Positions 8,415-34,050 of a DNA stretch of 64,000 bases are shown here, piece by piece. Numbering within the stretch: the first letter of the stretch is position 1; each line of letters starts with the position of its first letter. This DNA is from Arbacia lixula. Its lineage: Eukaryota > Echinodermata > Echinoidea > Arbacioida > Arbaciidae. The DNA lies in the NCBI GenBank assembly GCA_963669155.1, contig OZ022577.1, forward strand, positions 26,939,865-27,003,864, in the 5' to 3' direction. The notes under the pieces were generated by a model. The model did not search any database. It had not been told where the DNA came from and worked only from the letters and a program-made list of their open reading frames with translations. The position numbers and the translations under genes are program-made.

Positions 8415-9299
8415 CGTGATGAAAGGGAAAGGAAGGGAAGAAATGTGGAAAGCATGATGACATTTTACAATCTTACTGCCACTCATGTCGCCGACCGCCT
8501 ACACACCCCTATCTGTCCTTTATCGTATCTAAACATCTACATTTTCCCCAGTACACGTTATTTTTGTTATCTATTCACCATCCATCAATTTGACAAGCAG
8601 TTACCAATGTTACCATTGCATCATCCCCGTGATGTCATCATTCCGTCATCCATCCCAGACCGCCTTCTTTTACTTCAATACATACGAGTCGGAACTTTGG
8701 TCATCAACTTACCTCTTTGCCAAACTTCATGGTACTGTGGAAATCAATAATTTCCGCATGAGTCCCAATCGCTCATGCAATTATGGAACCTGAAAGTGCA
8801 TGCAAGTGACAAGCCGTCTGAAACGTTAGCCGTATATATGTTCGTTTTATTCTGGTCATTTGCATTCATAACATTATACATGTATACACATCTTTTTGGT
8901 TGAACGTGATCCAAAAGTGGGATTAATTGTGAAATATTATTGGATCTCCTGTGTTATGTACCTATAACGTAAACAAGCGGAAGTTTCTACCGTTCGAATT
9001 ACAGTAAATCAGCATACTTGGATTATAATTGTGATTATGTTTTAAGAATGCTGAACAGTATCAAGAATTTGAACGTGGAGTTAACCATGTCCACTTGTTA
9101 GTTCCCCCGCCTCGTGCAAATGCAATTTACGCTTTCGACAGATAGCTTGATCTCATAAGTATGTACACGGATATGAGTACACTTAAATGGACTCCAACCG
9201 TTGATCTTTTGTCTATTTACCTTGGCTCATACATTCATTGGTGTCCGGGTGTACTTTTTTCAGTGAGTTTATTTTATTGAATAGAGATCGTGTGCCTCC

Positions 9300-9960
9300 T
9301 GCAAGGCTCACCCTATTATCATACGAAAACTAGAGCGAACACTCGATGGGGTACTTGTGGTCGAACAATGGACTTTCGCCTTCGCGTCGTTTGTGCCTGG
9401 CCCAGGCGACCAATCAGCGACTTCCGTCTACCGCATAACAATAACCTTCCGTGCTGCTAATTAGCTGACCTCCGGCGGGGCGCTGTATTTGAATCTGTCA
9501 GCAAGCGGAAAAGCTCGCCGTGGCCGCTGTAGTGTACTGTTAGCGAGTATCACACTTTTGCACACGCTCGACGCGCACTCTTTCTGTGCACTGTGATATA
9601 CCGCAGTAATAGTATACTGCATCATCGTAAATATGTGTAGCCAAGCGAGGATATGAGCAGCTGATCGTCTAAGGATGAACGGATTATAAAGAACCTGTCA
9701 CCGAGGAGACGCAGAATTAGTCATTTCTACGCCCTTTCCAGGATTTCTGACACGGCATCCACGCTGTTGTAAACATTCCGCGGAGAGCTCTCCTGCAAGA
9801 GAGATATACTACTACTACAGACGTGAGCAAACGTCGCTAACTGTGGACATTTCGCACAAATATTATTTCAACATACGGTTATAATTCGCCCGTTGATCAG
9901 TGTGTCTTGTTTAACCAATATATTTGTATCGCTACTTTGTGGACTACCCATCTTTTCGTC
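9300..9960 (+). promoter_or_regulatory. probable promoter and 5' UTR region of the pseudokinase gene
   Basis: GC and CpG content rise sharply from about 9340, with words such as ggcggggcgc, ctcgccgtggccgc and cgctcgacgcgcac, and stay high into the coding region. This resembles a CpG-rich, TATA-less metazoan promoter. No TATA box at a sensible distance and no clear initiator could be fixed, so the transcription start is unknown. This is inferred from composition and position. Confidence 0.4.
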
Positions 9961-11184
9961 ATGAATCAATACGTGGAAGTGGAGCAGCTCCGAGCGGGTT
10001 ATTTCGGCACGGAGCACAGATACCGTGAGAGAGGCATCAACGGCAAGGAAAGGTTGGCTAAACTCGTCCCCGTCAGCAAACGGGGCAAAGCAAAATGGGT
10101 TCTGGAGCAATATTACCGCAAGATGGTGCTCAGGTTGCCCCAACACGACAACCTCGTCAAAATCAAAGCAGCATTTATGCACAGCTCTTCGACGAATGAT
10201 GATGATGAAGATGAACACCAGGACATGTATCTGTGCACGGTTTGGAAAATGTATAGCGAGAGCAATTGCATGAATCTGAACGGGTATCTGTTGTCGAGGA
10301 GAGACCGGCTGAACGACGATGCCTACAAATCGTTGATGGTGCAGCTAGCCAATGCCATGGAGCATCTTCACTCACACGGGACGGCGCATAATGCCCTGAC
10401 ACCGTACAGCGTGATGGTGGTCGAGGGTACAAAGGGACAGGCCGTGGTGAAGGTGGGCGACTACGGGCTCACGCAGGTGTGCGGCGCGGCCTGCAACGAC
10501 AAATATAAAGCTGACGGCCAGCTGCCCAAGAGCCTGGACTTCTACCTGCCCCCGGAGGCTCACGACGAGTCATGGGGACATCCCGGCCAGGCAAACACAA
10601 CCGCGGATGTCTTCATGCTGGGGCTGCTATTCAGCGCCATGGTGGAACATTCCGTGGTCGAGGGAGCGGACCAGAACGAGGAGACCATCATTGCCCCGTT
10701 CGTGCAGTTCCCTGGATACGGGACGGTGCCAGTCGGCCGATTCCTCCGAGTAAACCCCAGCATCAGCCTGGACCGACAGCTCCACCGCAAGCTCAGCCCC
10801 GAGCTTCGCAGCCTCGTCAGGAGAATGACGCTCATCGACGCCGACGCTCGCCCGCCGGCCAACGGCGTCATTCACATGCTGGCGACTTGCGATACAATCC
10901 GCCGTAGCGACCAGTCGACATCGTCTGACGACGTCGACGCCACCACAACGACGACCACTACCACTACCAAATCGTCGACACTGACTAGGAAGCCGAGCGC
11001 GAGGAAGAGAGCGGCCAACCCGGCGATGTTCAACCCGTGCGTGTCCCCGCCCCAGATGCCGAGGATGTGCTCAGCATCAGTTCTCAAGCCCCCGGTTGAG
11101 AATAAGACCAATTTCATCAGGAGGGCGTCGATGAGAGCCAGCAACTACCTGCGGAGAAGCCGGTCCGTCAAGATATCCAACTAG
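9961..11184 (+). CDS. STK35/PDIK1L-family protein kinase-like protein, predicted pseudokinase, intronless
   Basis: The 407-residue protein starts at ATG 9961 (G at -3). The frame opens further upstream but only from a non-ATG codon, so the shorter start is chosen. Residues 1-310 form a kinase fold: a degenerate glycine loop (RAGYFG, 12-17), MNLNGYLLSR (104-113), the catalytic loop HNALTPYSV (143-151), DYG (167-169), FYLPPEA (194-200), TADVFMLGL (214-222) and VPVG (256-259). MNxYLLSR, KVxDxGLxxVC, the FYxxPE block, ADxFxLGxxxxAMxE and VPVG followed by a bulky residue match the STK35/PDIK1L group as I remember it. The loop reads HNALTPYS where active kinases have HRDLKPxN: the catalytic Asp is Ala145, Lys is Thr147 and Asn is Ser150. 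The DFG Asp is kept (Asp167). Phosphotransfer is therefore unlikely; a scaffold role is inferred. The tail has a nine-Thr run, basic stretches and RRAS (387-390), a PKA-type site. Codon use is GC-rich and the frame is clean, so it is not a decayed retrocopy. Confidence 0.85.
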   Translation: MNQYVEVEQLRAGYFGTEHRYRERGINGKERLAKLVPVSKRGKAKWVLEQYYRKMVLRLPQHDNLVKIKAAFMHSSSTNDDDEDEHQDMYLCTVWKMYSESNCMNLNGYLLSRRDRLNDDAYKSLMVQLANAMEHLHSHGTAHNALTPYSVMVVEGTKGQAVVKVGDYGLTQVCGAACNDKYKADGQLPKSLDFYLPPEAHDESWGHPGQANTTADVFMLGLLFSAMVEHSVVEGADQNEETIIAPFVQFPGYGTVPVGRFLRVNPSISLDRQLHRKLSPELRSLVRRMTLIDADARPPANGVIHMLATCDTIRRSDQSTSSDDVDATTTTTTTTTKSSTLTRKPSARKRAANPAMFNPCVSPPQMPRMCSASVLKPPVENKTNFIRRASMRASNYLRRSRSVKISN

Positions 11185-11530
11185 TGACGTAAGAATCGCT
11201 TGAATTTATGTCCGCTCCCCCTCCACCTTAGCCCTCCCTCTCTCACTGTCTTTCGCCCTGCCGCGTTTTTCTCACTATCATTCTCTCTTTCCCTCTATCT
11301 TTGTCTCACTGCCTACACCCCACTTTCTCCCTACTAATGTTTGTCTCTCTCCCTGCCCTCCCTCTTATATATACATTTATATGCATGTACCCCCTCCCTA
11401 CCACCACCGCTCCCGTTCTATGCATGTTCCTAATTATTTATCTATGGATTTATATCAATGCCTGGTATGGAGCTGGGTTGCCAAGATCTCCAACTAGTGA
11501 GTTAAGAATCTCATGGATTGATGCCGGCTC
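11166..11530. repeat. partial duplication of the 3' end of the pseudokinase gene
   Basis: The segment around the stop codon (tccaactagtgacgtaagaatc, split here by position 11176-11198) reappears about 310 bp downstream at 11486-11510 as ccaactagtgagttaagaat, followed by similar words (gaatttatgtccgctc versus gattgatgccggctc). Later words (atttatctatggatttatatc near 11438 and tttatttacggattgatatc near 11656) continue the match at lower identity, so the duplication is old and tandem. Confidence 0.65.
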
Positions 11531-12472
11531 ACTTGTTACTCATCTCTCAGTTCTGTCTCCCCCTGCGTTCTCTCTATCTTCCTCTCTCTGTCGCACCCCC
11601 CCCCCCCACACACACACACGTACACACTATTATTGTAATTTATATATGCTCCTTTTTTTATTTACGGATTGATATCACTGGATATTTACACGAAATGGAC
11701 TGTTATACCTAAACTAACTCGAAGTCGAAGACCCAATGTACACTCTGATAACAAATTGCTGAGTATGATAGTTGACATTTTGAACTAGCATAAGCAAAAT
11801 GACATACGAGGAGGTGTGACGTATTCTTTGATAATATCGCATACCTATAAAAAACGAGAATGTCGGTTTGTGCCCATATTTATTTTCATTTGCAAGAGAA
11901 TGAAATCACTGAAAATGTTTGTTATGACCAACTCTTTCCTCTTTAAATGAGACTTTCTGTAGTCAGACGACATGTATTTACAATTTCTTCGTTGTTCTTT
12001 TCCTGTATTGTTTATTTTGTTATCTTTATTCGTGATTTTGCACGTGTTTTCCTGTCTTCTTATCTGTCATACAGGTTGCAAAAAGAAGGATCGAGTATTG
12101 TGCGAAACAGGCAGAAGTCCTCTTCCTTATGTGCCTTGGCTTGATCGATGACAGCACTAAAGACGGTAACGAAAGTCAAAATCCGGCCCACTCACTCTTA
12201 ATACGGGCAAACGGGTTTTGATCTTCCATTGTGCAAAGCGTGACAATCGACTGACTTCCTTGTAGATTTCAAAGCGTCTTGTCAGACAGTGTCCCGAGAA
12301 AGCGCCTTCCAGAATCTGACATTCGTCATATCCCCGTCAGGGGCCAGGATGCAGGAAAACGGCCAAAAGAATCATTTTCCTGCCGCGCGATTTATAGTCG
12401 AGTCGCGTGGGATTGTGTACAGAGGGACCACGATGACAATAATGACACTTCCTTTCTTGCCCGTACGTGTAT

Positions 12473-12627
12473 AGGCCACAGAAGACCACACGATCCGATC
12501 AGTCCTGCGACTGGCTGAATAGCATGACGCGGTTATTGGATTTGTGCAAGAGAGTGACGTCACATTTAGACTCTTTTGCCCTTACAACTTGCAGCATCGT
12601 GGCAAAATCGTGTCGTCTGCGGCCTTA
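12473..12627. mobile_element. 160-bp TIR MITE with CRE-like core, copy A
   Basis: The left end aggccacagaagaccacacg and right end cgtgtcgtctgcggcctta are inverted repeats. The interior holds ttggatttgtgcaagaga followed by gtgacgtcac. It shares ends and interior with copies at 25131, 54118 and 57415. Confidence 0.75.
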
Positions 12628-14904
12628 AATGTTTGTATTTTATAAGATATGGGAAACGTTTAGGTAGCAACTGCTAAAGGATATTACACCTGTATATATA
12701 ATTATATTTTAAACTTTCTGTTGAAAACTTTTCACTTTCGTATTATCTGTACAATGATGTTAAAGTTATTTATTTTCTGCTAAGTTTCGTGTTCCGCCAT
12801 CACTTTCATGTGCGTATCGGGGATTAGGGGTGGGCTGGGGTGGGGAAGGGGGGGGGGGGGGGCAGGGTTACATAGGGTATAAGTGCTTTGTTTTAAATAT
12901 CATCTTCTTAATTGTTTACTGAGCAGGGGTAGGGTCCCGAATTACACCTCGGGCACTGTATGTATTTATTATATGCAATTCTACCCACATCGTCTTTACA
13001 CATTTTTTTAAAGCGAATATCATTTCAATCGTTCCTCGATCGTTTGGAGATATCGGCTCATTGAATTTGCGTATATTGCGTCGACCATTGCGTGTAGTAT
13101 TTCATTTACACATACAGATTAATGTGCGAATAACTAGTATCTTCGAAATGTTCCTATCTCGGATAGTGTCTAATATGTTCTGTACATAATCTGGTGTAGT
13201 ATACATGTTTACGTACACTTAAGTTCATTTTTTTGGGTACATTATTTAGAACATGTACAGCAATAGCTTCCAATTGCCTAGAATTGGAACATTGTACAAA
13301 AATACCACGACTGAGAAATGCATGTAAATATACGTGAATAATAATTTTGCAGAAAGAATGTTGAATTTTGATGAAACATTAGAATCCAGCGGAAATTCTG
13401 GATTTAGGGGCTAATCTACTTGCAGTGACTAAGAGCGAAATATTTTGTTGAATACATAATGGGCTTAACGACCGAGTTGTAATATAATAATCCATGCAGG
13501 GCTGCACACGTATTACGGTTTAATCTCCTGGCAGCAGGTTGCTGTCTTGGCAAGTCGCAATCTTTCCCCAACAGCCCCTCAACGTGAGTGTATTACAGTA
13601 ATGGATTTAATATATCGTTATATCCGCAGTGGGGTGGCTTTCACTACGCCAAACCGAGGCCTGATTCTACAACTTGCGCTAATCGTAATGCCAGAAGTAT
13701 ACAATACATCCAGATATGGTTTTCAAGCTATTTGCGCAGTGTTTTTTGTACACATCCGACAATTCAGATATTTCTACATGTATCATGAACCCAAAAGGCA
13801 ATTCGTTAACATGTAAAGGGTTGCAACGCGTGCCTGCACACACAAGACTATACCATTTTCAAACGTTAGCCTCTTCGTCATATAATTAGAGCTACTGCAC
13901 AGTTCTGAGATATTTTGTGAAAGCTCCATATTTTCTATATGCATGTCGACGCATATTTACATATATAGTCACGATATAGTTATACGGTGTACCATAGACA
14001 TGAACTAAATAAACATGCAGTACACTGCAATTTGTACATTTATATAGGAAACATGCATTTTTAAAAGTCATACAAACGAAACATGGAAAACTTGTACTTG
14101 TGGTTAGATTGACCTGCTCTCACTATCTGCCCCTTGCATTTTCGCAAATCTGCAATTTGACAAAGGTATACCCTATAATGGCTCCATATTTAACATTTTA
14201 TGACACAGCTATGCGTCTGCATGGGCTAAGCGTCAATGTCACAGACGTTGCGCACATTTCAAGTCTTATAATTGTTAATAAAACTTATTCAAAACTCGGA
14301 CGGCAGCTGTCCGTACTTGATTTGAGCATCCTTCGTGTCCTTTTCCGAAATTGCAGGGTCACGATTACGAAAGCAAATACATGTATTTACATCGTACTGG
14401 AAAGCATTTTGCTAGTTTTTTTTCCTCGCGCAATGTTAATCGTGGGAGTACGACAAACAAAGTTACGCGCTAGTTTTTAAATGCAATGTTGTACTGTAAG
14501 TCTTTTGCCCATAGAAATTTTAATAATTATTTATGACCGGATTAAAAATGCCGACTCTGTACAGCTTAGTCAAACCATGCGTTCTGTTTCATTTTTTGGC
14601 CCTGCCGACATGAGTTTTCGTGTTACAATGAAGGGTGCATGAGTGGGTGTGAGTGGCTAACGCAAAACAAGAGGGCGAGGAAACAGATGAGTGATGAAAG
14701 AAAGAAAAGAGAAGGAGAACGTGAAATTATTAAAGATGGCGCCACAATGATGCTATAAGAGAGGAGTGAAAAGGTGAACCACATTTGTTAACAGGAGATG
14801 AACAATATTTAATCTTCATTCCCAGAGCCAAAATTCAGTCAATAGGCATTTCCTGTATGAAGTCACATTGGTTTCAAAGCTGTTATGGATTTTCCACAGT
14901 CCGG
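12628..14904. other. gene-free intergenic stretch downstream of the pseudokinase
   Basis: AT-rich, with a G-run at 12849-12862. An open frame at 14100-14480 has no recognisable domain, no homologous motif and ordinary AT-rich composition, so it is not called. Confidence 0.4.
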
Positions 14905-23115: not shown

Positions 23116-23289
23116 CTCCACGATCGATCCCTGAGCTTTGAAGAACCACTGGTAGAAGAAGAAGGCGGGAATGTTGATCATGGTACAGAGAGCCAGGAGC
23201 CAGCCAATCATGTACCCCCACCACGGGTAAACGTAGGTATTGTTGTAAGTAAGGGGCTTGTACTTCACAAGGCTGAAGACGAAAATGGC
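23116..23289 (-). CDS. SLC6 transporter, exon with end of TM11 and TM12
   Basis: Acceptor cattttatag, donor GAG|gtaat, 58 codons in phase 0. It encodes [19 protein letters not shown], then [16 protein letters not shown] and [16 protein letters not shown]. The extracellular loop [15 protein letters not shown] and the following GW-LAL-S/T-M pattern are typical of TM11-TM12 in the GABA/taurine/creatine SLC6 group. NNT is an N-glycosylation sequon, but it lies close to the membrane. Confidence 0.95.
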
Positions 23290-31144: not shown

Positions 31145-32323
31145 TTTCATGACATCAACAAATACCTATCATGTAAAGGGAAGAAATATATTTGAAATAT
31201 TTAAAATAATATATAGATATTAGGAACGTGTCATATTCACTCACTTCAATTACATTACTGATCCATTACTGCCATCCTAATTCAATTAGATAAAGATATT
31301 TTACCATTCACTTTCCTATTTGTCATATTGTCTGTCGACATTTCAGGCAAGTATGAACCTTTTCTCAATTTTTATCATCAAATAAGTACATTTTCCGATG
31401 CTGTACGTTCTGAAATAGTCGTTAAAGCAGTTGTCATGATTACGTGTTACCGTGTATGTGTGTGTGATGTTACTATTACGAGCCAACACGATGTCGAAAT
31501 TCGTGCTCAAATCAAGAACCGAACTGATCGACTCTTTATCTCCGTTCGCTCCTCTTTGGGAATCGGATCGAGGAGGCAATCTTTCCATCGCACTCCGCAA
31601 ACAGTCTTAATCTCAATCTTTCTCTTGGAGCACCAAAAGCGCCTAGATTGTGAAGATGACGATGAGAGTCGTGCGTGTAAGAAAACCCGACAGACTACCG
31701 CCATAACGACATTACGGAAGGCTCACATTTTTGTGCCGCGTTGTCGGAAAAGTTAGATTGACTTGCTATTGCAATCGAACATGAAGTATAAAGTCAACAA
31801 TTCCGAAAATGAATGCAATATTTTGATGATTCTGTCTTGCTCAGATGACCGTCATCATGAGGATTATTGGGAGTAAAAAATTGGGCGTGAATTATGGAAG
31901 TCAAATGGTGGTCACAATCCCGTCTCATTAAGATCGTTTGTCGTTGTGGTAAAAGGAGTGGTGTGGTGTGGTGTGATGGGAAGGGGGGGGGGGGGGGGGT
32001 GCATAATCCCCTAAGTCTTCGCATCGAAATGAGGCATTTTTTTCACCGAATGTGTTACAGTGGCCAATTCTGGGAGACAGAATTCCACATACCCAGCAAG
32101 TCACCAGTACTACTGAGAAATACACCTCATGAAATATTCATAGTGCAAGACCCAGTACACTGACACAGTGGGGAAGGGAAGGGGGGGGGGGGGGCAGTGC
32201 CTGGTTGAAGATGTATGTAGTCATCGGTTTCTAACCGCGGGTTACATTTCTTTTCAATTTCCGTTCTTTGTCATTTGGGGTAGATGGAAGATGGGTAAAA
32301 TGGAAAATGACCGGTCCTTTTTC

Positions 32324-32327
<4 letters not shown>

Positions 32328-32377
<50 letters not shown>

Positions 32378-32378
32378 T
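32328..32378. repeat. (CT)n microsatellite
   Basis: About 50 nt of CT with one TTTC interruption, followed by poly-T and a GGTGGTGGG tract. Confidence 0.95.
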
Positions 32379-32730
32379 TTTTTTTTTTGGTGGTGGTGGG
32401 GGGTGGGGGGCGATGTTGAAGTGCATAATCCCGGGTTTCGTCACTAGATATGCCTGAGTAAAGGCAGTCGTGACAACCCATCTCTTGGCTTGTTTGATCT
32501 ACGGTCGGCAAGTCGTGCTCGTGCTCGTGTGAGGGCACGCTAGCTGGGTAGACATGCTCGACCCACCACGCCACCAACCCGTGCGTACTAAGCATGTCCG
32601 GAGGACGATCGATGGCGGGGAGTGAGAGACAGGGAAAGAAAGAGAGAGGGGATGGGGAGATGGGAGGGGAAAGAAAGAATAAATCACAGACATGAATGCA
32701 TTAACACACGTACACTTCTTAACATACGAA

Positions 32731-33669: not shown

Positions 33670-34050
33670 GCCGTTCAATCTTAAAGAAACAGATGAATGC
33701 AAGGCAGAGCTACCATGCTTCCCCAACATTCAATCTTAAAGGAACGGATGAGACAATACAGCACACAGCGACCATACATCCCCACCGTCCAATCTTGAAG
33801 TAACAGTTGAAGGCAAGACGGGAAACAGCGACCAAACTTCCCCATAATTCAATCTTCAAGTAACAGTTGAAGACAAGACAGGACATAGCTATCAAACTTC
33901 CCCACCGTTCAATCTTAGAGTAACGGATGAAGACAATACAACACACAGCTACCATACCCCCCCCCCCCAACCGTTCAATCTTTAAGTAAAAAATGAAGGC
34001 AACGAAGGACACAGCTACATGTTCCATGCTTCCCCACCGTTCAGCCTATG
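33670..34050. repeat. minisatellite of about 60-bp units, six to seven copies
   Basis: The phrase ccgttcaatcttaaagtaac, then gatgaaggcaa, acacagctaccat and acttcccc, recurs with starts near 33674, 33729, 33788, 33848, 33908, 33974 and 34040. Several spacings are 59-60 or 66 bp, multiples of or close to three. A reverse-strand frame therefore stays open with a repeated KIERWGSLVAV-like peptide, but indels, poor context and no homology argue against a gene. Confidence 0.85.

Follow-up and report, generated by a model that had tools for sequence, protein, structure and literature searches.

A single-frame gene for a catalytically degenerate kinase, probably related to the STK35/PDIK1L family

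The window analysed here, a stretch of 64,000 nucleotides at contig positions 26939865–27003864, carries on its forward strand an open reading frame that runs from ATG to TAG at positions 9961–11184 and encodes a protein of 407 amino acids (stop-to-stop 9841–11184, 447 amino acids). This frame exceeds every frame in the simulations run, in which the longest stop-to-stop frame was 267 amino acids among 30 simulated 64-kb sequences and 312 amino acids among 500 simulations of 2.4 kb that matched positions 9301–11700 in composition. Pfam places a protein kinase-like domain (Pkinase, PF00069; E 2.6e-14, 53.7 bits against a cut-off of 31.7) at residues 8–304 (positions 9982–10872), covering profile positions 5–258 of 263, and the PK_Tyr_Ser-Thr profile also matches the protein (E 4.8e-12). 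Because this near-complete domain lies within one frame, a coding intron is unnecessary. An intron may be present in the 5′ UTR, as the region 9301–9960, a putative promoter or 5′ UTR on the same strand, contains an acceptor-like site, CCCTTTCCAG at 9732, the only one noted upstream; a scan of this region for bacterial-type promoters carries no information on an animal gene. Scans of the whole window with Rfam (gathering threshold) and for tRNAs gave no matches.

The other gene recognized in the window is a sodium:neurotransmitter symporter gene of the SLC6 family on the reverse strand, identified with a provisional GAT1 sequence as probe and with Pfam. Six matched exons lie at 23116–62137 and four more lie to the right of the window, so that the ten matched exons, with gaps of up to ~12.6 kb, extend to contig position 27017408; residues 30–565 of the probe are matched piecewise, with 398–440 unmatched. 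The SLC6 gene and the pseudokinase gene are convergent, and the last matched SLC6 exon ends ~12 kb from the kinase frame. Nesting of the kinase inside the SLC6 gene was considered and rejected, since that last exon ends at 23116 and the SLC6 matches at E<=1 include none to the left of the kinase. Pfam searches with ten other open frames of the window gave the SNF domain in two, both of them SLC6 exons; a low-complexity frame at 32257–32700 had two matches under the cut-off, and the weak matches of the remaining frames were likewise under it. Between two SLC6 exons, at 33674–33954, a unit of 60 bp is repeated in tandem (4.8 copies, 76% matches). Several retroelement-like frames surround the locus. 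From contig position 26920146 onward on the forward strand, ~26 kb to the left of the kinase gene, there is a LINE-like frame of 1111 amino acids with endonuclease and reverse transcriptase domains, and close to its start it contains a 2A-like stretch, ...LLLSGDVESNPGP; 2A-peptide-like stretches are known from LINEs of sea urchin and other invertebrates, so that the frame would fit an invertebrate deuterostome as host. A reverse transcriptase frame of 450 amino acids begins at contig position 27012359 on the forward strand, between two matched SLC6 exons and opposite to them, and overlapping frames of 544, 254 and 218 amino acids on the reverse strand at contig positions 27074797–27076942 have, by eye, the look of gag/pol remnants.

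The kinase protein was compared with PDB structures and with a provisional sequence of human PDIK1L used in place of a database record, with STK35 and STK35L3 lying outside this set. Against the provisional PDIK1L the whole protein scored 56.2 bits (E 2.8e-14 when scaled to the PDB set); the best of 177,635 distinct PDB sequences reached 27.3 bits, so that solved kinases came to about half the PDIK1L score at most. For the C-lobe, PDIK1L scored 59.1 bits, followed by GCN2 (28.6), CDPK (20.8), ULK1 (19.0), MAPK6 (18.7), CDPK2 (13.3) and STK33 (10.4); each of the six PDB panel pieces is partial and falls short of the PDIK1L piece in length (most so for CDPK and MAPK6), a bias that favours PDIK1L, and the comparison with whole PDB chains, which is the fairer test, agrees with the panel. 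In shuffle tests against PDIK1L (500 shuffles each), residues 87–243, which include general kinase motifs, gave a z of 24.8. Two more specific blocks are common with the provisional PDIK1L: YLLSRR at residues 109–114 (10285–10302), which corresponds to YLLSRK, and a VPVG...NP...L segment at residues 244–304 (10690–10872; z 8.4, 500 shuffles). Both YLLSRR and VPVG..NP are missing from the panel pieces that span those places, which for VPVG is the ULK1 piece only. For residues 1–90 no likeness to PDIK1L above the shuffle mean was found (z 0.0, 500 shuffles). The first-pass annotation had described the protein as STK35/PDIK1L-like with intact family blocks; both descriptions hold for the C-lobe, where PDIK1L represents the nearest family among those compared and YLLSRR and VPVG..NP are retained, and neither holds for the N-lobe, which carries no PDIK1L signal. 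As judged by sequence likeness, the protein is probably NKF4-related and not a settled member of that family.

The alternative that survives best, although we regard it as unlikely, is that the protein is a diverged pseudokinase from a different kinase family, and that its C-lobe likeness to PDIK1L results from a small comparison set combined with a long branch. Besides the featureless N-lobe and the short panel pieces, this view draws on the PDB search, in which kinases of different groups (CDPK, MAPK6 and GCN2) were near-equal to one another at 26.6–27.3 bits with the whole protein, and on the reverse query, in which PDIK1L ranked ULK1 (85.0 bits), STK33 (81.2 bits) and CDPK2 (70.2 bits) above the window protein (58.5 bits); the latter ranking fits a fast-evolving family member and would equally fit a non-member. 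In an eight-row tree the window protein and PDIK1L were joined at 99/97, but with a window branch of 4.04 changes per column, four of the five inner branches open and some rows only half filled, the tree supports the grouping without proving it, and the placement is unsure. Excerpts from Goyal 2009 (PMC2737284) also state that sea urchin, lancelet, fly and worm have no genuine STK35L1 homologue. Against the alternative stand the twofold score of PDIK1L over whole chains and the two blocks held in common with PDIK1L. Searches of prokaryote and viral collections with six short peptide patterns yielded no close relative (11 pattern matches in one search, 0 confirmed), which is as expected for an animal gene.

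The frame reads like that of a living gene, since its third-position GC of 0.744 equals that of the neighbouring SLC6 gene, a separate gene used as a codon-usage yardstick (0.738 in six exons pooled, 858 nt, with exon limits set by BLAST ends rather than splice sites, so that a few intron codons are possible); the GC of the remaining 1-kb stretches of the window is 0.32–0.49. When copies of the frame were allowed to drift neutrally in a simulation that modelled substitutions only, 305 of 2000 were still open at 5% substitutions, 30 of 2000 at 10%, 1 of 2000 at 20% and 0 of 2000 at 30%. The identity to the provisional PDIK1L is 25.5% over 290 aligned residues, and together with the rapid closing of the frame under neutral drift this indicates that most of the divergence accumulated while selection kept the frame open. 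Function may nevertheless have been lost very recently. The earlier argument for a living gene is thus borne out as far as the open frame and its GC-rich codons are concerned, whereas the CpG-rich upstream region added to it is a weak signal: CpG observed/expected is 1.24 at 9301–9960 against a window median of 0.82, yet in three further flanks outside coding sequence it is 1.05, 0.65 and 1.10, and the GC of the region is just 0.476. At the 3′ side, and counting against a living gene, neither AATAAA nor ATTAAA was found in 11185–14000, the only related signal being TATAAA at 11846. A direct repeat of 60 nt (11158–11217 and 11471–11530, 77% identical, 313 nt apart) places a second copy of the pseudokinase's final codons and stop region in the presumed 3′ UTR, and both copies are followed by CT-rich sequence.

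A copy that died recently or drifts neutrally, be it a retrocopy or a relic, and has yet to gain a stop would account for the lost catalytic residues, the single coding exon, the lack of a canonical poly(A) signal over 2.8 kb and the adjoining duplicated 3′ end, and the LINE-like frame ~26 kb to the left means that retroposition machinery exists. We consider this explanation improbable. In addition to the codon composition and the drift simulation, a search of the genome (607 Mb, 590 contigs) with the whole protein, in which all 10 of 10 candidates were scored, recovered nothing beyond the gene itself at E<=1e-3; this search reads exon by exon and follows the best candidates only, so that an old, intron-split relative of ~25% identity could be missed, but a recent parent copy would not easily be. 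No run of eight or more A was found in 11001–14500, no 25-base stretch with at least 16 A in 11185–13600 (in steps of 10), and no exact word of 11–14 nt common to 8801–9960 and 11185–13600. An imperfect pair of 16 nt flanks the gene (8557–8572 and 12010–12025, 88% alike), which counts toward a copied origin; this two-copy pair is T-rich and can be due to chance. The 273,865 bp around the gene (~110 kb to the left and 163 kb to the right) hold no second copy, the sole other match at E<=1 being one of 26 residues (E 0.43) inside a stretch that by eye is retroelement-like, and a tandem family was rejected on this basis. Of the suggestion that the gene arose by retroposition, the recent form is to be set aside, as there is no parent at E<=1e-3, no A-tail and no exact flanking repeat; a recent retrocopy origin is unlikely. 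An old retroposition is possible, with no sign of it found, as age could have erased the parent, the A-tail and the target-site duplication. The one-exon structure is by itself no sign of retroposition, because single-exon genes are common in deuterostomes, with 2482 given for sea urchin in an excerpt of PMC3155783.

The degeneration of the catalytic machinery is most evident in the catalytic loop, where the protein has HNALTPYSV in place of HRDLKPxNI at residues 143–151 (10387–10413). In four HMMER alignments to PDB sequences this stretch falls on the HRDLKPxN column (HKDLKPEN in 3is5), and DYG at residues 167–169 (10459–10467) falls on the DFG column with its Asp kept; the alignment to the provisional PDIK1L gives the same correspondences. 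The first-pass annotation had claimed both a dead loop with Asp, Lys and Asn replaced and a retained DFG Asp, and these alignments confirm the two claims. Relative to HRDLKPDNI of the provisional PDIK1L, six of the nine residues differ: His, Leu and Pro are retained, and the changes include the Arg, the catalytic Asp, the Lys and the metal-binding Asn. The loop codons (CAT AAT GCC CTG ACA CCG TAC AGC GTG) lie in frame between conserved flanks, so that the changes are substitutions and not a shift. Elsewhere in the alignment to the provisional PDIK1L, the first glycine of the P-loop is replaced by Arg-11, and in the activation segment the ...TACGT... stretch is absent and APE has become PPE. 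With the HRD Asp and the metal-binding Asn both gone, the protein lacks the catalytic base and one of the metal ligands, and ordinary phosphotransfer by it is therefore unlikely, as far as the sequence allows this to be judged. The reading of 9961–11184 as a pseudokinase gene is well founded.

Some kinases with odd motifs are active nonetheless, among them WNK, CASK and HASPIN, and the protein could in principle have kept or regained activity through an unorthodox set of residues. The retained DFG Asp is in keeping with this, as is Lys-34, which falls on the β3 Lys column in the alignment to 3is5. In that alignment, the one that covers the αC Glu column, this column holds Lys-54; the N-lobe part is weak, and against the provisional PDIK1L the N-lobe aligns no better than shuffles, the region of the β3 Lys and the αC Glu included. 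However, the HRD Asp is lost together with the loop Lys and the metal-binding Asn, there is no acidic residue within HNALTPYSV, and the P-loop and activation segment are degraded as well, which makes such activity very unlikely. That the loop stems from faulty assembly or sequencing, whether a frameshift or a single miscall, was rejected as highly improbable: nothing was found in its favour, the loop is in frame, its flanks match, and six of nine residues have changed with His, Leu and Pro kept.

We thus favour, as reasonably likely, the reading of the frame as a living and old gene with a single coding exon for a catalytically dead kinase whose C-lobe goes with STK35/PDIK1L (NKF4). The protein ends in a basic tail, residues 335–407 (10963–11181), which is Ser/Thr-rich and partly low-complexity, with a run of Thr, and has a pI of 12.0 with 16 Lys/Arg against 1 Asp/Glu; it contains the basic Ser sites RKPS at 343 and RRAS at 387–390, in agreement with the tail and RRAS site described earlier. 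From these features one may infer a role as a regulated scaffold. The protein would transfer no phosphate by the ordinary route and would instead function by binding, through the C-lobe with its retained VPVG...NP segment and through the basic tail, where phosphorylation of RRAS and RKPS by other kinases could tune the binding. Its partner might be one that it has in common with STK35/PDIK1L; the phosphatase CTDSPL2 (SCP4), reported in an excerpt of PMC11362329 to dephosphorylate STK35 and PDIK1L, would be one guess. By occupying the partner surface of an active STK35/PDIK1L-type kinase, the window protein could, again as a guess, act as a non-catalytic competitor or scaffold for the STK35/PDIK1L partner complex.

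No paper on a dead STK35/PDIK1L relative was among the literature matches listed. The resemblance of the window protein to STK35, PDIK1L and STK35L3, judged against the provisional PDIK1L only, consists of the C-lobe, for which it is the nearest match, YLLSRR/K and VPVG..NP, and a start placed about equally before the P-loop. In contrast to these kinases, its catalytic loop is destroyed, the first P-loop Gly and the activation segment are changed, the N-lobe is beyond recognition and there is a basic tail of ~100 residues. The gene has one coding exon, whereas NKF4 members have 2–4 exons in vertebrates and 9 in Ciona according to excerpts from PMC2737284, which also describe STK35 as a kinase of unknown substrates. 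The same excerpts treat a sea urchin gene, SPU_003710, that was once called STK35 and was rejected by Goyal 2009 with 10% identity to STK35L1. It is an echinoderm gene filed under STK35, and we would guess that it might belong to the same divergent lineage as the window gene; a divergent gene such as the window pseudokinase might be missed by a search of the 2009 type. A functional parallel is offered by KSR3 of non-chordate animals, a kinase-dead protein that, according to an excerpt of PMC10322840, activates RAF allosterically in sea urchin and in which the HRD motif is missing and the P-loop altered; KSR3 belongs to the KSR/RAF family, unlike the window protein, and the two are likened by description and not by sequence. 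By analogy with KSR and RAF it is conceivable, if rather unlikely, that an old kinase-dead STK35/PDIK1L branch in some invertebrate deuterostomes serves as a built-in decoy or scaffold for the complex of the active members.

Pseudokinase paralogues are a familiar kind, and one from a known family is unsurprising in itself, as is a single-exon gene, these being common too, and KSR3 exemplifies that a dead kinase can function without catalysis (PMC10322840, in excerpt). If the host is an echinoderm or a lancelet, the gene would also bear on the 2009 statement, in the excerpted text of PMC2737284, that denies these groups genuine homologues. A relative that keeps the C-lobe without the chemistry would mark the binding-relevant surface of the STK35 kinases.
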